A DNA stretch of 64,000 bases from Oscillospiraceae bacterium (GTDB lineage Bacteria > Bacillota > Clostridia > Oscillospirales > Oscillospiraceae): assembly GCA_902778275.1 (NCBI GenBank), contig CACYXE010000002.1:56812-120811 (forward strand), given 5' to 3'. Numbering within the stretch: position 1 is the first letter of the stretch; every line of letters begins with the position of its first letter. Under the pieces are notes generated by a model that made no database searches, was not told the origin of the DNA, and was given only the letters and a program-made list of their open reading frames with translations. The position numbers and the translations under genes were made by a program. Positions 35,116 through 44,604 of the stretch are shown here, piece by piece.

Positions 35116-37209
35116 ATGAACACAGTCACAGAATTGTTTGGTTCGATGGTTTTTAATGACTCTGTTATGAGAGCCCGCCTTCCCAAAGAGGTGTTCAAGC
35201 AGGTCCAAAGTTCGATCAACGATGGTAAGCGGCTTGACAGCAATGCTGCGACTGTAGTCGCCAATGCGATGAAAGACTGGGCCATAGAAAAGGGCGCAAC
35301 GCATTTCACCCATTGGTTCCAGCCCATGACCGGGATTACTGCGGAAAAGCATGACAGCTTTATTTCTCCCGTCGACGGCGGGCGTGTCATAATGGAGTTT
35401 TCCGGAAAGGAATTGATCCAGGGTGAACCGGATGCATCCAGTTTTCCTTCCGGCGGTCTGCGCGCCACCTTCGAAGCCCGCGGCTATACCGCGTGGGATC
35501 CCAGCTCATATGCCTTTATCAAAGATGGTGTTCTCTGTATTCCCACCGCTTTTTGCTCCTATGGCGGGGAGGCACTGGATAAAAAAACACCGCTGCTCCG
35601 GTCAATGGAAGCAATCAACCGGGAAGGCATGCGTGTCATCAAGCTTTTCGGCAATGAGAAAGTAACGTCCATCAAAACCACCGTCGGTCCGGAGCAGGAG
35701 TATTTCCTCATCGACAGAGATATTTATGAGAAGCGTAAAGACCTGATCTATACCGGCCGTACTCTGTTTGGCGCCAAGCCGCCGAAGGGGCAGGAGCTGG
35801 AAGATCATTACTTCGGCGCCATCAAACCCCGGGTGGCGGCGTATATGAACGAGCTGGACGAAGAACTATGGAAGGTTGGGGTCCTGGCCAAGACAGAGCA
35901 CAACGAGGTGGCGCCCGGTCAGCATGAGCTGGCCCCGATCTTCACCACTACCAACATTGCCGCAGACCATAACCAGCTGACTATGGAACTGATGCAGCGG
36001 ATCGCCAGGAAACACGGCATGGTCTGCCTGCTGCATGAAAAACCCTTTGCCGGCGTCAACGGCAGCGGCAAGCACAATAACTGGTCTATCAGCACCAACA
36101 CCGGCGTGAACCTTCTTGAGCCCGGTGACACTCCCTATGAGAATGCGCAGTTCCTGCTTTTCCTCTGTGCAGTTATCCAGGCCGTGGACGATTATCAGGA
36201 TATGCTGCGTCTCTGTGTTGCTTCCGCGGGCAACGATCACCGTCTCGGGGCCAATGAGGCGCCTCCTGCGGTCGTTTCCATCTTCCTCGGCTCTGAGCTT
36301 GAGGCGATTCTGTCTGCCATCGAAAATGATGAGCCTTACGGCAACAAGGAAAAGGAACTGATCAAGGTCGGCGCGCATGTGCTTCCCAAATTCCCCAAGG
36401 ATTCTACAGACCGCAACCGTACCTCCCCGTTTGCTTTTACCGGCAATAAGTTCGAATTCCGAATGCTTGGCTCCGCACAGTCCATTTCCGGCCCCAATGT
36501 AGTACTCAACACAGTCGTTGCCGAATCTCTGCGGCAGTATGCAGATATCCTGGAGAACGCTGAAAACTTTGAGGATGCGCTGCACAATCTGATCAAGGAC
36601 GTAATCCGCAAGCATAAGCGCATCATCTTTAACGGCAATGGTTATGACGATGCCTGGATCGCTGAGGCAGAGAAGAGGGGATTGCTGAATCTGAAATCGA
36701 CGCCCGACAGCGTGCCTTGCTATCTGGATCCCAAAAATGTCGAACTGTTCACCAGGCATAAGGTATACAGCGAGACGGAGATCCGCGCCCGCTATGAAAT
36801 CAAGCTTGGAAATTATTGTAAGGTTCTGCACATTGAGGCCCTGACCATGCTGGATATGGTGTGGAAAGACATCCTGCCCGCTGTGACGGCTTATTCCAAG
36901 TCTCTGACAGATACTGCGCTCTCCAAGAAAGCGCTCAGTGAGAGTATCGACTGCGGCTTTGAGACCGTGCTTGCCGCTAAAATCAGCAGCCTGACCTCTG
37001 CTGCTGTGGCGAAGACAAGGGCTCTTGAAGAGGCGGTAATGGAAGTCAAGGGCATCACCGACACATTGGAACTGGCGCGCTTCTATAAAGATGTCGTCTT
37101 TGCGGCTATGAATGAACTGAGGATCGTTGTAGATGAACTGGAGACCCATACGGCTGCCGAGTACTGGCCGTATCCTACTTATGGCGATATCCTGTTCAGT
37201 GTCAAATAA
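35116..37209 (+). CDS. glnN: glutamine synthetase type III
   Basis: 697-aa GSIII, the large dodecameric glutamine synthetase common in Clostridia and Bacteroidetes, forming Gln from Glu, NH4+ and ATP. N-terminal GSIII domain ([28 protein letters not shown]), [31 protein letters not shown] (metal Glu), [19 protein letters not shown], and the ATP region SVFLGS / [29 protein letters not shown] ribosome site. Regulated by the attenuator and probably by the ANTAR protein. Confidence 0.95.
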
Positions 37210-37225
37210 TGAAACGGTTAATAAC

Positions 37226-37258
37226 AAAAAGGCACGGTTTTCCGTGCCTTTTTGTTTT
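37226..37258. terminator. bidirectional terminator after glnN
   Basis: AAAAAGGCACGG pairs with CCGTGCCTTTTT around a short T-rich loop, then GTTTT. Also serves the convergent peptidase-like gene ending at 37257. Confidence 0.92.
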
Positions 37259-37913
37259 ATCTGTCTGTTAAATATACAATATTGCTGAACAGGTAATTGC
37301 TGTGTTTTCGAACGTACTGGTCATATTCCGCTCGATTGATAAAAAACTGCTTGCCCCAAGACGAAACACTAAGCCATTCCGCATCCAAGCCGGTTGCGGT
37401 GACGTAATGGGCCTGGATCGCAACAGACTTCTGATAGGTTCCGTTGTGCAGCTTATGATAGAAGTTCAGGCGATGCTTTTGCCAGACAGCAGGAAAATTG
37501 GGGCCTACAGAAAGAATGACCGGAAGATCCCGTTTGAGCATATTTTCGATTCGATCCCAGATCTTGTTTCCGGAAACCATCCATCTGGCGCGATAGGGGA
37601 GGCCTTCCGCTCTCAGAAGCCGGTTGAGCCCGGCAACTAAAAACAGACCGTTAATTCCGAAATGCGGGATCAGCGGAAAATACCGGCGGCCCAACTTCTC
37701 CAGTGAATCATTGTATTCCCGCAAGGGAAGAGGGGAGGCGGATGCACGGGGAAATGTGTCACGCGCTCTGAGATACAAAACAAGATCCAGAGCCGCAACA
37801 ACACCGCATCCGCATTCTTTCATAATAGAACCCTTGGCAAGCATTTGATTGCCGCCGTAGGAACACATTCCTTCCGCATACACCTGCGGATAGGGATGAT
37901 TCAGCGTAATCAT
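37257..37913 (-). CDS. putative papain-like (C39-type) cysteine peptidase
   Basis: 218-aa cytosolic-looking protein with no signal peptide. MKECGCGVVAALDLVLY near residue 34 resembles the nucleophile region of C39-like peptidases, QAHYVTATGLD offers a catalytic His, and VSSWGKQFFI resembles the papain NSWG block with Ser in place of the usual Asn. I read a papain-type fold but cannot assign a family or substrate. No ribosome site is visible at ATG 37913; it starts 21 bases after the phosphofructokinase stop, so it may rely on coupling. An inactive relative is possible. Confidence 0.5.
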   Translation of the reverse strand: MITLNHPYPQVYAEGMCSYGGNQMLAKGSIMKECGCGVVAALDLVLYLRARDTFPRASASPLPLREYNDSLEKLGRRYFPLIPHFGINGLFLVAGLNRLLRAEGLPYRARWMVSGNKIWDRIENMLKRDLPVILSVGPNFPAVWQKHRLNFYHKLHNGTYQKSVAIQAHYVTATGLDAEWLSVSSWGKQFFINRAEYDQYVRKHSNYLFSNIVYLTDR

Positions 37914-37934
37914 ATAAGCTGTATACTGAAAGAA

Positions 37935-39176
37935 TTATTTGGCAAGAACTTTCTTCAAACGTGCGTAACGAGGCAGAGAATTCTCCAGAGGAAGAACGGG
38001 CTCGCCCTGGATCAAAGGGAGAACATAGTCGATGAACTCGTGCTTCAGACCGTTCTGCTCTTCATTGATCCACTCCAGAGGAACCTTCTTCTCGTAATTT
38101 GCAACAGAAGAGAGGGGGAGCAGTTCATACTTGCAATTATACTGCCCGTCTACGGTTTCCCGTTTAAAGGCAACCATCTTACCGGTAACACCGCGCACTG
38201 CCTGCTCAACGGCTTCCTTGCCGGCATTGCAGGCTTCCTGCACATCCGTGGCAGACGCCAAATGAGCCCCGCAGCGCTGCAGAAGGCTCAGCTCGATGCC
38301 GCGGACCTTCGCACCGGTATGTTTTTTTACAATCTCCGCGAGGAGCGTAGCAAGACCACCTAACTGAGCATGACCGAAACCGTCGGTCGCAGAAGTCTTT
38401 GCTTCGGATACAAAGCTTCCATCCGCATAATGGATGCCTTCGGAAACTGCGACAAGGACTTTACCGGTCTCGTTGTAAATACGGTCTACATCCGCAAGGA
38501 ACTTGTCCATATCGAAGTCGCACTCGGGCAGGTAGATCAGATCCGGACCGGAGCCGAATTCAGTGGCCAATGCGGCACTGGCAGCCAGCCAACCGGCGTG
38601 ACGCCCCATGATTTCCACAATAGTGATCATGCCGTTGTCATATACACGGGCGTCCTTGTTGATCTCCATGCAGGAGGTCGCGATATATTTTGCGGCGCTT
38701 GCAAAACCGGGGCAGTGATCTGTGCCAAACAAATCGTTGTCAATTGTTTTGGGAACGCCCATCACGCGGCATTCATAGCCAACAGATTCCATATATCGGC
38801 TGATCTTGTTGCAGGTATCCATGGAATCGTTACCGCCATTGTAAAAGAAGTAACGTACGTTGTACTTCTTGAAGATCTCCAGGATCCGTTTATAATCAGT
38901 GTCATCCACATCGGGGTCGGCGATTTTATAGCGGCAGGAGCCCAGCTCGGAAGAGGGCGTATGCAGGAGGAGTTCCAGCTCCTTGGGGTCCTCCTCATCC
39001 ATCACATACAGCTTATCCTCCAGCACGCCCTTGATACCGTGAGCAGCACCATAAACCTTTGTGATCTCCTCAGCGTCCAGCGCTGCGCGAATGACACCAT
39101 AAGCACTGGCGTTGATAACAGCGGTAGGACCGCCAGACTGTCCAAAAATGCAGGAACCGATCAATTTTTCACTCAT
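37935..39176 (-). CDS. pfp: pyrophosphate-dependent 6-phosphofructokinase
   Basis: 413-aa group II phosphofructokinase using PPi as phosphoryl donor, a reversible glycolytic step. PPi-type markers are NGGNDSMDT in place of the ATP-type GGDGS and PKTIDNDL with Lys; other parts are FGQSGGPTAVINAS, MGRHAGWLAA and PGHCPGF. GGAGG precedes the ATG. Shares an upstream region with the aldolase gene, which runs the other way; together they cover successive glycolytic steps. Confidence 0.92.
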   Translation of the reverse strand: MSEKLIGSCIFGQSGGPTAVINASAYGVIRAALDAEEITKVYGAAHGIKGVLEDKLYVMDEEDPKELELLLHTPSSELGSCRYKIADPDVDDTDYKRILEIFKKYNVRYFFYNGGNDSMDTCNKISRYMESVGYECRVMGVPKTIDNDLFGTDHCPGFASAAKYIATSCMEINKDARVYDNGMITIVEIMGRHAGWLAASAALATEFGSGPDLIYLPECDFDMDKFLADVDRIYNETGKVLVAVSEGIHYADGSFVSEAKTSATDGFGHAQLGGLATLLAEIVKKHTGAKVRGIELSLLQRCGAHLASATDVQEACNAGKEAVEQAVRGVTGKMVAFKRETVDGQYNCKYELLPLSSVANYEKKVPLEWINEEQNGLKHEFIDYVLPLIQGEPVLPLENSLPRYARLKKVLAK

Positions 39177-39234
39177 ATGGTTTTTGCCTCCGTTAAAATA
39201 TTTAAATTTTTCCTTGTTTTGTGAAATGTGCTTA

Positions 39235-39263
39235 TTGATTATGGTATGTTTTGAGGATATAAT
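39235..39263 (+). promoter_or_regulatory. sigma-A promoter for fba
   Basis: TTGATT (39235-39240), 17-base spacer, TATAAT (39258-39263). Start about 39270. No convincing promoter was found for the divergent pfp gene. Confidence 0.75.
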
Positions 39264-39271
39264 AGAAAAGC

Positions 39272-39302
39272 AAATTTGTAAATGTACTATTTGTACAAAT
39301 TT
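39272..39302. repeat. 9-bp inverted repeat in the fba leader
   Basis: AAATTTGTA (39272-39280) and TACAAATTT (39294-39302), a perfect 9-bp inverted repeat 13 bases apart, just after the predicted start of transcription. Could be an operator or an mRNA hairpin. Confidence 0.6.
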
Positions 39303-39331
39303 TTAGATTCTTTTTAAGGGAGAGTAGAAAA

Positions 39332-40300
39332 ATGCCTCTTGTTACTACAAAAGAAATGTTTGCCAAAGCGTATGACGGTGGTTATGCCATTGGTGCTTTC
39401 AACGTCAATAATATGGAGATCGTGCAGGGTATCACGGAAGCGGCCGGCGAGTTGAAGAGCCCGGTTATTCTGCAGGTATCCAAGGGCGCGCGTTCTTATG
39501 CCAATCATACCTATCTTGTGAAGCTGGTTGAGGCTGCTATTATTGAAAATCCTGAGATTCCCATCGCGCTGCATTTGGATCACGGCGATACGTTCGAGCT
39601 GTGCAAATCCTGCATTGACGGAGGTTTTACCTCTGTTATGATCGACGCTTCCTCCAAGTCTTTTGAGGACAATATCGCCCTGACCCGTCAGGTCGTCGAG
39701 TATGCACATGATCACGGCGTCGTAGTTGAAGCTGAACTGGGGACGCTGGCCGGTGTGGAAGATGAAGTCGCGGTCGAGCATGGCCATGAGAGCTACACCC
39801 GCCCGGAGGAAGTTGAGGAATTTGTGAGCCGTACCGGCTGCGATTCTCTGGCGATCGCCATCGGCACATCTCACGGCGCCTATAAGTTCAAGGCTTCTCA
39901 GTGCACCCGTAATGCGGAAGGCATTCTGGTTCCGCCTCCTCTTCGTTTTGACGTGCTGGAGGAATGCATCAAGCGCTTGCCCGGCTTCCCGATTGTTCTG
40001 CACGGATCTTCCTCCGTGCCGCAGGAGTTTGTCAAGATGGTCAACGAGTATGGCGGCGATATGCCTGACGCCATCGGCATCCCTGAGGATCAGCTGCGTG
40101 AGGCTGCAAAGCTTGCTGTCTGCAAGATCAATATCGATTCCGATATTCGCCTTGCCATGACTGCCAATATCCGCAAGTACTTTGTTGAGCATCCCGATCA
40201 CTTCGATCCGCGCCAGTATCTGAAGCCCGCTCGCCAGGCAGTAAAGGATATGGTCGCGCACAAGATCGTCAACGTTCTTGGTTCTGACGGAAAAGCCTGA
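39332..40300 (+). CDS. fba: class II fructose-bisphosphate aldolase
   Basis: 322-aa zinc aldolase splitting fructose 1,6-bisphosphate. IGAFNVNNMEIVQGI N-terminus, zinc His in ALHLDHGD, then GFTSVMIDASSKSFEDNI, EAELGTLAGVEDEV, GTSHGAYKF with another zinc His, and HGSSSVPQEFV with the third. About the standard length. Diverges from pfp. Confidence 0.95.
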   Translation: MPLVTTKEMFAKAYDGGYAIGAFNVNNMEIVQGITEAAGELKSPVILQVSKGARSYANHTYLVKLVEAAIIENPEIPIALHLDHGDTFELCKSCIDGGFTSVMIDASSKSFEDNIALTRQVVEYAHDHGVVVEAELGTLAGVEDEVAVEHGHESYTRPEEVEEFVSRTGCDSLAIAIGTSHGAYKFKASQCTRNAEGILVPPPLRFDVLEECIKRLPGFPIVLHGSSSVPQEFVKMVNEYGGDMPDAIGIPEDQLREAAKLAVCKINIDSDIRLAMTANIRKYFVEHPDHFDPRQYLKPARQAVKDMVAHKIVNVLGSDGKA

Positions 40301-40350
40301 TAATCATTTAAAGACAAAGACAAAGAGAGATTTACCGGGAGGTGGCAGAT

Positions 40351-42021
40351 ATGAGCCAACAGACTGGCCGGGCGAAACACGCCGTACAAGCACCGCCTAA
40401 GAAACCCAAAAGGGAAGCGGGAATATTAGATCCTACTTTGCTGATTCGTTTAGTGATCGCTATTGTGATTTTTGCAGTAGCGCTGATCTTGAAAACGCCT
40501 GTATTCGTAAAAGTGATCTTGCTTATCATTTCTGCGCTTGCGGCAGGCTATGATATCTTTCTTGAGGCGATTGATTCTGTTGAAGAAGGGGATTATTTTG
40601 CCAACTCCCTGATCGTGATCTGCGTAGCAGTAATTGGATTTGTCATTGGCTATCCTACGGAGAGCGCCGCGCTTGTGATTCTTTATCAGCTCGGTGTTCT
40701 GGCAATTGCCTATGCAGGGAAGCGTACACTCGCTTCTGCACTTGCACTTGTCAACGGCCAGGACGATGAGATCAAATCCCGCGTGAAGGAATTGGTGGAG
40801 AGCAAGGAAGCAGATCCCTTGAAGATTGAAAAGGTCATGCGTTCCAGTGCCGGTTTGGTTTTGCGCGCCGCTATGATCTTTGCTGCTGTCTATGCTATTG
40901 TATTGCCGCTGTTTTCTTCTTTCCCCTTTAGGGTCTCTATTCATCGCGCACTGATGATCATTTTGGTGTGCACGCCGGCTTCCATTGTGGCTGCAATGCC
41001 CTTGGCTGGTATCGTCGGGATTGGTCAGAGTGCCAGCAAGGGTATCTTGTTTGGAAAGTCCTCGGCACTGGAAAAGGCCGCCAACATAAAAACCGCGGTC
41101 TTTGACAAAGCGGGTATTTTCTCGGCCGACAGCCCGGAAGTTCTGAAGATGGAGTCTTCCGTTCTGGATGACGATACTTTTTTGAATTTTGCCGCACATG
41201 CTGCGTATTATTCTGACCAGCCCTTTGCCAAGGCCATATCTGATATTTACGATCAGGAGTATAAACTTGACGTAGTCAGTGATTTCAAGGATTTGCCCGG
41301 CAATGGTGTGGAATTGAAGATCGGCGGGACGCCCGTCCTTCTTGCGACCGGAGAGTATTTGGCCAGCAGGGGAGCAAACGTACCTAAAGATCCCGGTGAA
41401 AAAGGACAGCCTTATTATCTGATCATCGCCGGCCGTTATATCGGAAAGATTCTGATCTCCGCCAATGTGAACGCTGGCACGGAAGGACTTCTGGACGGCA
41501 TGGCTGCTGCCGGGGTGCAGCGCTGTGTATTGCTGACGGAGGATGGCCAGGAAGAGAGCCGCCGCATCGCGGAAGATCTTGGCTTCTCTGAGTTCATTGC
41601 AGAAAATGACACGATGGATAAGTTGGCATACCTGAGTAAGTTGAGTGCAGCGTCTCCTGATCAGGTCATGTACGTTTATTCAAACGGCTTTGAAAATCAC
41701 AGTGATGCCGCGCTTGATGTTCGGGTCAGTACAAAAGGGAAGTACGCTGATGCGCTTGTCGCTCCCGAACTGGTGGCCAACTTGCCCGAAGCCGTTAAAA
41801 TCAGCAGGAGACTGCATGACGTCGCGGTTGAAAATGCGGTCTTTGCTTTCGTTATTAAAGCGATTTTGATTTTCCTCAGTGTGATAGGGTGCTGCACCTT
41901 GTGGTTTGCAATGTTCCTGGATACAGCCGCTACGCTTGCCACCATCCTGAATACGATCCGTGTGACAAAAGATTCGAAATTCTTCCGAGCCTCTGACGAT
42001 GATGAGGATGAAGAAGAGTAA
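40351..42021 (+). CDS. degenerate P1B-type ATPase-like membrane protein
   Basis: 556-aa protein built like the core of a heavy-metal P1B ATPase but with its chemistry gone. Basic N-terminus (PPKKPKRE), membrane helices about 30-120, 165-190, 198-226 and 496-528. CPC is CTPAS (207-211), the DKTGT box is FDKAGIFS (Asp252 kept, Thr to Ala and Ile), TGD is LTEDG (about 395), GDGxND is YSNGFENH (443-450), and the HP motif is DQPFA. The actuator domain that should lie between helices (about 110 residues with TGE) is missing: only about 45 residues separate the helices at 120 and 165. Ends in an acidic tail DDDEDEEE. GGGAGG eight bases before ATG. Transport is unlikely; a sensor or scaffold role is a guess. 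Confidence 0.75.
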   Translation: MSQQTGRAKHAVQAPPKKPKREAGILDPTLLIRLVIAIVIFAVALILKTPVFVKVILLIISALAAGYDIFLEAIDSVEEGDYFANSLIVICVAVIGFVIGYPTESAALVILYQLGVLAIAYAGKRTLASALALVNGQDDEIKSRVKELVESKEADPLKIEKVMRSSAGLVLRAAMIFAAVYAIVLPLFSSFPFRVSIHRALMIILVCTPASIVAAMPLAGIVGIGQSASKGILFGKSSALEKAANIKTAVFDKAGIFSADSPEVLKMESSVLDDDTFLNFAAHAAYYSDQPFAKAISDIYDQEYKLDVVSDFKDLPGNGVELKIGGTPVLLATGEYLASRGANVPKDPGEKGQPYYLIIAGRYIGKILISANVNAGTEGLLDGMAAAGVQRCVLLTEDGQEESRRIAEDLGFSEFIAENDTMDKLAYLSKLSAASPDQVMYVYSNGFENHSDAALDVRVSTKGKYADALVAPELVANLPEAVKISRRLHDVAVENAVFAFVIKAILIFLSVIGCCTLWFAMFLDTAATLATILNTIRVTKDSKFFRASDDDEDEEE

Positions 42022-42036
42022 AATATCGGTTTCAAG

Positions 42037-42070
42037 AAAAAGCTGCGATGTTAGTCGCAGCTTTTTCTTG
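42037..42070 (+). terminator. terminator after the ATPase-like gene
   Basis: AAAAAGCTGCGA pairs with TCGCAGCTTTTT around TGTTAG, followed by CTTG. Confidence 0.92.
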
Positions 42071-42126
42071 ACTTTTATCAGGCAGGGGATTATGATACTT
42101 ACAAGCAGAAATGCTTTTTTAAATAC

Positions 42127-42140
42127 GCGATAAATATCGC
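42127..42140. promoter_or_regulatory. palindrome upstream of the recombinase gene
   Basis: GCGATA-AA-TATCGC, a perfect 6-2-6 inverted repeat 59 bases before the start codon, in an AT-rich region that probably holds the promoter. The two-base centre excludes an RNA hairpin, so a protein site is more likely. Confidence 0.35.
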
Positions 42141-42198
42141 ATAATATAAATTTAGCGAGATTTCTTATGCCGTTTTTTCGAAGAAAGGAGTTTTTTCC

Positions 42199-43188
42199 GT
42201 GAATCTGGATCAAATCAACGATATCCCCGATATTCTCATGGAGTTTCTGGAATATCACTCTACTGTACGCGGGCACTCTGATCGTACAGTCATGGCTTAT
42301 TATATGGATTTAAAAATCCTTTTCCGTTTTTTAAAACGACGCAGACATTTGGTGGATTCTTCTGTTCCGTTCAATGAAATTGATATCACAGATGTGGATC
42401 TGGATTTCATTGAGAAAACCCGTATTGAAGAGCTCTATCGATATCAGTCCTTTTCTCCGGAGTCCAATCAATCTTTATCAGCTGCAAGCCGTTGCCGAAG
42501 AACATCTTCGGTCAAATCATTTTTCAATTACCTGACCACCAAACGTCACCTGCTGGATCACAATGTGACTTTGGAACTGGATATGCCCAAACGTCAGGCT
42601 TCTTTACCTCGTTATTTGGAAGAATCGGATTGTGAAAAACTTCTCAATGTTTGTGATGGTCCCTATGGTTTACGGGATTACTGTATTCTGATGCTTTTTA
42701 TGTCCTGCGGATTGCGTGTATCCGAATTGGTTTCATTAAATGTAAGCGACATTTATGATGATCATCTGCGGGTGCTTGGTAAGGGCAATAAAGAGCGTGT
42801 GGTCTTTTTCGGCGATGGCTGCCGTGAAGCTATTGATGATTATTTAATGATCCGAAACGTTGAAAAAGTGCCGGAAAAAGACCAAAATGCCATGTTTATC
42901 AGTCAAAAAAATTGCAGATTTGGCGTGCGTGGCGTACAACAGATGGTCGAAAAAAAGCTGAAATTGGCCGGCCTTGACGCCACCCGCTATTCCCCGCACA
43001 AATTACGTCACACCGCCGCAACTTTGATGCTGAAAAACGGTGTAGATACCAGGGCCTTACAGGAGGTTCTTGGTCATAGCAATCTGAATACCACGCAAAT
43101 CTATACCCATCTTGATAATGCGGCCCTTCATGAAGCCGCTATGGCGAATCCGATAGGTCGTAAACACAGATCTGATCGAGATGAATGA
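42199..43188 (+). CDS. tyrosine recombinase (XerC/XerA-like)
   Basis: 329-aa integrase-family recombinase. SAM-like N-terminal domain (to about 140) and catalytic domain with all key residues: CGLRVSEL (Arg), LGKGNKER (Lys), HKLRHTAAT (His-x-x-Arg), LGHSNLNTTQIYTH (His and nucleophile Tyr). GTG start with AAAGGAG. A second Xer gene is at 52047, so this pair could form the XerC/XerD chromosome-dimer system; it could also be a domesticated element integrase, but no att site or cargo is seen around it. Confidence 0.85.
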   Translation: MNLDQINDIPDILMEFLEYHSTVRGHSDRTVMAYYMDLKILFRFLKRRRHLVDSSVPFNEIDITDVDLDFIEKTRIEELYRYQSFSPESNQSLSAASRCRRTSSVKSFFNYLTTKRHLLDHNVTLELDMPKRQASLPRYLEESDCEKLLNVCDGPYGLRDYCILMLFMSCGLRVSELVSLNVSDIYDDHLRVLGKGNKERVVFFGDGCREAIDDYLMIRNVEKVPEKDQNAMFISQKNCRFGVRGVQQMVEKKLKLAGLDATRYSPHKLRHTAATLMLKNGVDTRALQEVLGHSNLNTTQIYTHLDNAALHEAAMANPIGRKHRSDRDE

Positions 43189-43192
43189 CAAG

Positions 43193-43242
43193 CAAGCCAT
43201 CCGGCCGGAATGGTCAGATGGCTTGTTGATTTATTTCTTTTT
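43193..43242. terminator. terminator between recombinase gene and radA
   Basis: CAAGCCATC (43193-43201) pairs with GATGGCTTG (43217-43225), followed by TTGATTTATTTC. Serves the rightward gene; weaker for radA on the other strand. Confidence 0.75.
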
Positions 43243-44604
43243 TCCCAAAACAGCGGCTATGGCTTCGCCTATGTTTTTGACCGGGATCAGATGTAGATCT
43301 TTTGGGCAAATGATCTCATCCCGCACATGCGCCGGAATCACACAGCGATGAAACCCAAGTCTTGCGATTTCCGACAGTCTCTGATTCAAAACGCTCACAC
43401 TGCGAATTTCTCCGGATAAACCTATTTCACCGATCGCCGCCAAATCCGCTCCCAATGGCCGGTCAAGAAAACTGGAGGCCACTGCCAGCAAGGTTGCCAG
43501 GTCCGCTGCCGGCTCATCCAAGGAAAGACCGCCGATAACATTGATATAGGTGTCGCAGTTTCCGATTGGCATTCCCCCGCGTTTTTCCAGTACGGCAAGC
43601 AGCATAGCTGCCCGGTTATAATCGATGCCGTTGCTTCTGCGTGAGGCATTGTATCCGCCGGGACTTACCAGTGCCTGGACTTCAGCAAGAATGGGTCTTG
43701 TGCCTTCGATTACGCAAGCGACACAGGTACCTGGACTGTTCTCGGGGCGGCCGGAGAGCAAAAGCTCGGAGGGATTCTCCACACAGCGCAGTCCGGCTTC
43801 TTCCATTTCAAAAACACCGATCTCATTGGTAGACCCAAAACGATTTTTAGCGGCCCGCAGAATACGAAAACTGGTATTGCGTTCGCCCTCAAAGTACAGA
43901 ACACAGTCGACCATATGCTCAAGGACTTTGGGACCCGCTATACTTCCCTCTTTATTCACGTGCCCGATGACGAAAACAGTGAGTCCCTTTTCCTTCGTAA
44001 CACGCATGATGCGCATGGTGCACTCTCGCACCTGGCTGATACTGCCCGGCGCTGAACTGATTTCCGCATCCGAGACCGTTTGAATGGAGTCAATGATCAC
44101 GACCTCGGGCTTCAGTGTATCAATGCAGTTGAGAATATTGTCGATATCTGTCTCTGCCAACACATAAAGACCGTCGTTTTCCACGCCCAGACGGAGCGCG
44201 CGCAGTTTCAATTGCCGTTCGCTTTCTTCTCCAGTCACATACAGGATCTTTCTTCCCGCAAGAGGCTGCCCGCACATCTGCAGCAGCAAGGTGGATTTAC
44301 CGATGCCTGGCGCGCCGCCAACCAGGTTCAGTGAGCCCAGAACCGACCCGCCGCCCAGAACGCGGTCAAACTCAGAAATGCCGGTGGAAAACCGCATTTC
44401 TTCCGCTGTGTCAAGTTCAGAGATCCGCCTGGCTTTCGGCTGGCTGTGGTCACGCTTTGCACCAATGGCTTTTTTCGCGGTTCTGGTATCCAGCTTTATT
44501 TCTTCCAGGCTGTTCCACGCGCCGCAGGCAGGGCATTTCCCACCCCAATTTGCGGTCTCGTTCCCGCATTCGCTGCAGCAATAGATTGTCTTTTGTTTAG
44601 CCAT
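43231..44604 (-). CDS. radA: DNA repair protein RadA
   Basis: 457-aa RecA-like helicase for branch migration in recombination. N-terminal zinc finger CCSECGNETANWGGKCPACGAW, Walker A GAPGIGKST, the RadA motif KNRFG (AAKNRFGSTNEIG), and a C-terminal Lon-protease-like domain with VNVIGGLSLDEPAADLA. No lonB neighbour. Followed at 15 bases upstream by the cwlD stop. Confidence 0.95.
   Translation of the reverse strand: MAKQKTIYCCSECGNETANWGGKCPACGAWNSLEEIKLDTRTAKKAIGAKRDHSQPKARRISELDTAEEMRFSTGISEFDRVLGGGSVLGSLNLVGGAPGIGKSTLLLQMCGQPLAGRKILYVTGEESERQLKLRALRLGVENDGLYVLAETDIDNILNCIDTLKPEVVIIDSIQTVSDAEISSAPGSISQVRECTMRIMRVTKEKGLTVFVIGHVNKEGSIAGPKVLEHMVDCVLYFEGERNTSFRILRAAKNRFGSTNEIGVFEMEEAGLRCVENPSELLLSGRPENSPGTCVACVIEGTRPILAEVQALVSPGGYNASRRSNGIDYNRAAMLLAVLEKRGGMPIGNCDTYINVIGGLSLDEPAADLATLLAVASSFLDRPLGADLAAIGEIGLSGEIRSVSVLNQRLSEIARLGFHRCVIPAHVRDEIICPKDLHLIPVKNIGEAIAAVLGKKK

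Follow-up and report, generated by a model that had tools for sequence, protein, structure and literature searches.

How can a gene for a heavy-metal transporter be maintained when its product lacks the parts by which such transporters work? P-type ATPases are textbook machines in which the actuator domain counts as indispensable. The question is raised by one gene of the window, i.e., the whole 64,000-nucleotide stretch of an Oscillospiraceae genome analyzed in this study, where it follows fba, the gene of a class II fructose-bisphosphate aldolase. A sequence-only reading had described the product as a P1B ATPase stripped of its catalytic parts and possibly repurposed.

Gene, product, and missing parts

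The reading frame (Table 1) is open, as that reading had stated, and encodes 556 amino acids, with an ATG start preceded by GGGAGGTGG; starts were chosen by a script, and the lengths and gaps given here may shift by a few codons. The protein matches TIGR01525 (NCBIfam heavy-metal ATPase) with an E-value of 1.9e-44 and 152.5 bits, which is far below the cut-off of 346.25. The top PDB match in phmmer is ZntA (4umv; 2e-30, over residues 143 to 539), and the match to ZntA reaches 1.2e-46 with an orthologue profile as the query. In Pfam, only residues 139 to 229 align, to positions 91 to 180 of E1-E2_ATPase and below the cut-off; among 27 orthologues searched at an E-value of 0.01, E1-E2_ATPase was found in 20 and Hydrolase in 7. 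The relationship to heavy-metal P1B ATPases claimed from motif order is borne out by these searches, and the P and N domains and the C-terminal helix pair share ancestry with P1B-2 (Zn/Cd) ATPases. Kyte-Doolittle hydrophobic blocks lie at residues 22 to 75, 80 to 124, 162 to 228, and 488 to 533, which four helix pairs would fit, as judged by hydropathy alone. No Rfam family was found at the gathering threshold within positions 37000 to 44000 of the window. A scan of genome contigs gave one P1B fragment, which is unrelated.

Table 1. Features of the fba locus, with positions in the window and residue numbers of the 556-aa protein
Feature	Position	Strand	Evidence
Promoter-like site TTGATT-17-TATAAT, upstream of fba	39235..39263	+	consensus scan only
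Gene of class II fructose-bisphosphate aldolase (fba), leading the pair	39332..40300	+	ORF; TIGR01859
P1B-like pseudo-ATPase gene, second of the fba pair	40351..42021	+	ORF, profile searches, alignment, orthologue counts
E104, equivalent to ZntA E202 (exit-path Glu)	40660..40662	+	E 65, D 3 of 68; ZntA alignment
Linker replacing the actuator domain, residues 128-164	40732..40842	+	37 residues in 68/68 genus copies
T208-P209-A210 at the CPC metal-motif site	40972..40980	+	alignment
D252-K253-A-G-I256 at the DKTGT site	41104..41118	+	D 65/68, K 65/68, first T 2/68, second T 0/68
Nucleotide-domain H283..S288..Q290, canonical His = Gln	41197..41220	+	Q 66/68
G317-x-G319, nucleotide-domain GxG kept	41299..41307	+	both Gly 68/68
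T396-E397-D398 at the TGD site	41536..41544	+	alignment
S444-N445-G446-F-E448-N449 at the GDGxND site	41680..41697	+	alignment, 68 copies
K503, equivalent to ZntA K693	41857..41859	+	K 68/68; ZntA alignment
D524, equivalent to ZntA D714	41920..41922	+	D 67/68; ZntA alignment
Terminator-like hairpin after the gene pair, 18 pairs, loop 4	42032..42071	+	scan

The motifs were read on a 76-row alignment with canonical pumps. In the stretch bounded by the columns of residues 128 and 165, the window protein has 37 residues; of the 29 comparison P1B rows, 28 have 123 and one has 124, and L003, among these rows, is itself motif-dead. Because 37 residues stand where 28 of the 29 rows have 123, the actuator domain with its TGE is gone, in agreement with the sequence-only reading, which had given about 45 residues between the helices. 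One of the 68 short linkers of the genus contains TGE as a string, and DKTGT, CPC, and GDGxxD are each absent from all 68 full-length genus copies, so that neither an intact actuator domain nor DKTGT is present in these close relatives. The replacements proposed for DKTGT (DKAGI), TGD (TED), HP (QP), and GDGxND were recovered on the alignment, the last of them as GDGIND to (S)NGFEN. The replacement of CPC by CTP was not; CPC aligns with TPA, and Cys207 lies one residue ahead of the motif. Asp252 is replaced by Glu in the remaining three genus copies. At the aspartate positions of GDGxND, Asp is found in 1 of 68 copies at Asn445 and is not among the six commonest residues at Asn449.

Because TGE, the threonines of DKTGT, and the aspartates of GDGxND are missing, an E1-P/E2-P cycle is not credible in the light of established P-type chemistry; without them, the metal-binding Asp of GDGxND included, the P-type cycle should be unable to run. 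The Asp252-Lys253 pair, which is kept in 65 of 68 copies, could still be read as a sign of ATP-driven pumping by some reduced mechanism without an actuator domain. This is very improbable, since the actuator domain is absent, the two DKTGT threonines are present in 2 and 0 of 68 copies and the first GDGxND Asp in 1, and GDGxxD is found in none.

Conservation and selection within the genus

The genus search covered 102 genomes, which are sample draws and in some cases incomplete. At least a piece of the gene is present in 74 of them (73 by search and a contig-end fragment in G003), and 68 of the 74 copies are full length. The copy in G475 is frameshifted, and that in G472 ends early at a stop codon; the other four are incomplete at contig ends (G016 and G003), split over two contigs (G434), or represented by a partial retrieved sequence (G459). 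In three genomes (G440, G452, and G468), fba lies approximately 210 nt from xer with no pseudo-ATPase gene in between, and the gene is thus dispensable there; given the arrangement in G908 described below, this absence is most simply taken as a loss. Twenty-eight genus genomes were searched for fba (G003 included, G028 not), and 22 of these gave no fba match at 1e-40. Of the 22, xer is also absent in 20 and pfk in 21 (1e-60), i.e., the whole segment is absent, and therefore the joint loss of fba and the gene says nothing about function.

Rates of substitution were obtained by Nei-Gojobori counts, in which pairs are poorly resolved once dS exceeds 1 and the g433 pair has reached saturation; genus pairs were prefiltered for similar length and for more than 200 of the last 300 residues being identical in place. 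For 16 close genus pairs with dS of 0.05 to 1, dN/dS is 0.041 to 0.184 (median, 0.10), which shows, on the basis of these counts, purifying selection on close pairs. One more distant genus pair has a value of 0.202 at a dS of 2.2, pairs within the related genera g411 and g453 have values of 0.034 to 0.218, and a g459 pair has a value of 0.105. The loss of catalytic residues, the early end in G472, the frameshift in G475, and the absence of the gene between fba and xer in three genomes are what a decaying pseudogene could show; with 68 of 74 copies full length, dN/dS of 0.041 to 0.184 in the 16 pairs, and a linker of constant length in 68 of 68, this explanation is scarcely tenable and was rejected, as the sequence-only reading had anticipated.

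The conserved positions are unevenly distributed along the protein. The mean fraction of the commonest residue in the genus is highest in the last helix pair (0.70) and the nucleotide domain (0.62) and lowest in the linker (0.43) and the termini (0.27 and 0.34). Asp252 and Lys253 are retained despite the loss of their catalytic partners, and Arg199 (68/68), His283 (68/68), and Ser288 (66/68) are further constant positions. Outside the genus, the position of Gln290 is Asn, Asp, or Thr in three g411 rows and Ser, Gly, or His in g453 and g400, while all six g459 rows have Gln; the second Gly of GxG is gone in two of these six. Since the nucleotide pocket varies in this way, function and ligand may differ between the lineages.

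Also retained in the genus, together with the altered nucleotide domain and the place behind fba, is the membrane part with three charged residues on the Zn path. Among the 27 P1B rows of other genera that lie near fba, the equivalents of Glu104, Lys503, and Asp524 are Glu in 25, Lys in 26, and Asp in 24, respectively. In passages of PMC6305203 and PMC8880997, ZntA E202, K693, and D714 are described as the exit-path Glu, the built-in counterion Lys, and the metal-binding Asp, and a passage of the former describes the equivalent Glu and Lys of plant HMA4 as required for function. As the three residues survive, ions could still matter. The membrane part might then act as a passive or gated conduit through which Zn or another cation flows down its gradient with no need of ATP. 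The three residues, the HMA4 requirement, and the CPC motif retained in actuator-less rows of g453 and g400 all speak for this; CPC is found in none of the 68 genus copies and the Lys-Asp pair may serve folding, and we consider such a conduit improbable, though not negligible.

The fba neighborhood and relatives in other genera

The aldolase gene scores 355.8 bits against TIGR01859, which is above the cut-off of 343.05, and the pseudo-ATPase gene starts 50 nt behind it. A consensus scan of the window found no terminator-like site between the two genes; the terminator noted in the sequence-only reading was found behind the pair as a terminator-like hairpin. The two genes are probably transcribed together. 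The divergent gene upstream of fba (37935-39176, reverse strand) matches diphosphate-fructose-6-phosphate 1-phosphotransferase (NF010675, above the cut-off), and the locus thus pairs a phosphofructokinase of the pyrophosphate type with an aldolase.

The position next to fba, also pointed out previously, is constant. In all 72 testable genus loci, i.e., those with at least 150 nt upstream (two loci had less, and one second fragment was skipped), the pseudo-ATPase gene is directly preceded by fba in the same orientation, with a gap of 10 to 199 nt (median, 38 nt), and the upstream fba piece is 70 to 97% identical to the window fba. In other genera, all 18 actuator-less loci obtained by a protein search regardless of fba show the same arrangement, with gaps of 1 to 75 nt. 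The genes further downstream of the pair differ between genera. G889 carries fba twice, and a separate actuator-less gene lies behind either copy (L189 and L194); the dN/dS between the two pseudo-ATPase copies is 0.159 at a dS of 1.7.

Stretches of multiple kilobases separate the pseudo-ATPase gene and xer in L049 (10794-18324) and xer and radA in L036 (5530-9739). An IMG/VR contig (L277, 357-4246) carries a 48%-identical pseudo-ATPase behind an fba tail, followed by genes that we take to resemble those of microvirus replication initiator and pilot proteins, at the site of xer in many genomes.

A search of a family sample (400 genomes) gave full-range relatives in g411, g459, g453, and g400 (18 loci in 17 genomes), by which an origin restricted to the window genus was rejected. 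In an order sample (394 genomes) and a class sample (391 genomes), there was no other full-range match among the matches listed; scoring was limited to three candidates per genome, and G072 and G426, later shown to carry such genes after fba, were part of the order sample. In a search that started from fba, 124 of 150 family genomes gave an fba match and 80 downstream regions were taken, several of them short at contig ends; a P1B-like frame was present in 9 of the 80, with the frame in G895, which starts 2290 nt from fba, not counted as linked. Rows obtained in this way are not independent evidence for linkage to fba.

The P1B genes near fba range from one intact pump through dead proteins with an actuator domain to actuator-less forms. 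The intact pump (L270 in G908, of a genus other than that of the window) has all motifs and the actuator domain and starts 484 nt past the fba match, with the gene of a 116-aa ArsR-type regulator in between. Dead P1B proteins with 116 to 123 residues in the actuator stretch follow fba in G906, G983, G922, G941, and G426, and one with 124 residues follows at a gap of 110 nt in G1065. G929 and G072 have dead and actuator-less proteins, with 20 and 41 residues; the gaps to fba in these two and the former five genomes are 16 to 74 nt. Where a dead form still has its actuator domain, Asn or Ser replaces the catalytic Asp and CPC is broken. The actuator-less forms mostly keep Asp-Lys and lack other parts instead, the exceptions to Asp-Lys being Asn-Lys in G072, Asp-Asp in G929, Glu-Arg in G900, and the three genus rows with Glu. 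Two other P1B-like proteins were observed along the way. The genome of the window encodes a second motif-dead one of 666 amino acids (L003, 736-2733 of contig C1), which has an actuator stretch of 123 residues but GKTGT for DKTGT, SPS for CPC, and TGG for TGE. In G936, a P1B protein that is not beside fba (L195) has GEGLND for GDGxND, with TGES, CPC, and DKTGT intact.

It is conceivable that the gene simply uses transcription at the level of fba and has a job unrelated to aldolase. The short gaps are equally compatible with this explanation, the intact pump of G908 also sits near fba, and we know of no biochemical link between an aldolase and such a protein; but the pair persists with different downstream genes and different fba variants and also where it occurs twice, and the explanation is unlikely.

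A tree was calculated from 484 columns without the actuator stretch and 67 rows (nine of the 76 were dropped). It joins the window genus (g1) with g411 and g459 (100/99), beside dead forms from g417 and g433 that still have the actuator domain (99/97), and joins g453 with g400 (99/93), beside the intact G908 pump (97/86). A single actuator-less clade was rejected by AU tests, which were performed after the tree was seen (p = 0.0129 with 33 rows; p = 0.00427 with 35 rows, G929 and G072 added), and with it a single loss of the actuator domain (p = 0.004 to 0.013), so that the domain was lost at least twice. On the tree, the actuator-less label requires at least three changes, one of which depends on the long-branched G072; the positions of the long branches G072, G900, G929, L003, and L004 are themselves unsure. 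The deep forks are weak (52/91); the rows near fba take two changes on this tree and may or may not share one origin. The aligned ends at the deletion junctions are suggestive only. G908, which belongs to another genus, is the only genome in which an intact P1B pump gene was found near fba; this is compatible with an ancestor-like state, and the order of fba, ArsR-type gene, and intact pump suggests a metal-resistance cassette beside fba as the starting point.

Proposed role and comparison with known systems

The earlier notion of a repurposed pseudo-transporter is supported by the full-length copies in 68 of 74 genomes, the dN/dS of 0.041 to 0.184, and the fba gene upstream in 72 of 72 loci. 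Since the gene is kept intact in dozens of related genomes, it probably has a new job, perhaps tied to aldolase. We favor a protein that does not pump but, anchored in the membrane, serves the class II aldolase as a sensor, regulator, or scaffold; we put this at a probability of about one-half, with the part of the aldolase presumed from the neighborhood. Class II aldolase is zinc-dependent. A Zn/Cd pump of the P1B-2 type would have become a pseudo-ATPase and the second gene of the fba unit; its membrane part and altered nucleotide domain would have been retained for sensing or docking at the membrane, with class II aldolase as the partner or target, and the aldolase might be regulated or anchored according to the metal or nucleotide state, with no ATP-driven movement of ions.

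Dead paralogues often regulate live ones, and the genome of the window has an intact homologue, the ZntA-like L002 (genome G000, contig C26), with all motifs. The window protein could dimerize with or tune this pump; we regard this as quite improbable, because the constant neighbor is fba and not a pump gene. P1B-like matches are present in 353 of the 394 order genomes, and their co-occurrence therefore says nothing.

The aldolase-linked sensor or scaffold can be extended to a broader and more tentative proposal, which we hold to be possible but doubtful: repeatedly, and two or more times within a single bacterial family, a Zn pump beside an aldolase gene became a dead, actuator-less membrane subunit with a sensing function for the metal or nucleotide state, by which the aldolase is controlled or anchored. 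If so, a transporter would have taken on the regulation of central metabolism. The open-licence PMC papers searched contain no report of inactive, pseudo-, or actuator-less P-type ATPases, nor of P1B genes in aldolase operons, which is weak evidence of absence. An actuator-less group that is maintained by selection, together with living intermediates near fba, offers a natural experiment in the conversion of a transporter into a pseudoenzyme and points to a possible connection of class II aldolase with a metal-transport scaffold. In annotation, proteins of this kind may be taken for heavy-metal pumps, in which case metal resistance would be predicted wrongly.

The closest systems for comparison are found near fba and among the Zn/Cd pumps. 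The intact pump of G908 resembles the window gene in its place downstream of fba on the same strand and groups with the actuator-less forms of g453 and g400, whereas its motifs and actuator domain are intact and an ArsR-type gene intervenes, as in a metal-resistance cassette. The proteins of G1065, G906, G983, G922, G941, and G426 are likewise encoded directly after fba (gaps of 16 to 110 nt) and catalytically dead, but 116 to 124 residues remain in their actuator stretch. With ZntA and CadA, the window protein shares the sequence of the P and N domains, GxG, similar hydrophobic blocks, the ALEKA helix preceding the P domain, and the equivalents of E202, K693, and D714; on the other hand, it has no actuator domain, TGE, DKTGT, CPC, or GDGxND, and the His of HP is replaced by Gln. 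As in pseudoenzymes in general, the catalytic residues are gone while the fold is retained and the gene is under selection, but here a multidomain membrane transporter has, in addition, lost an entire domain.
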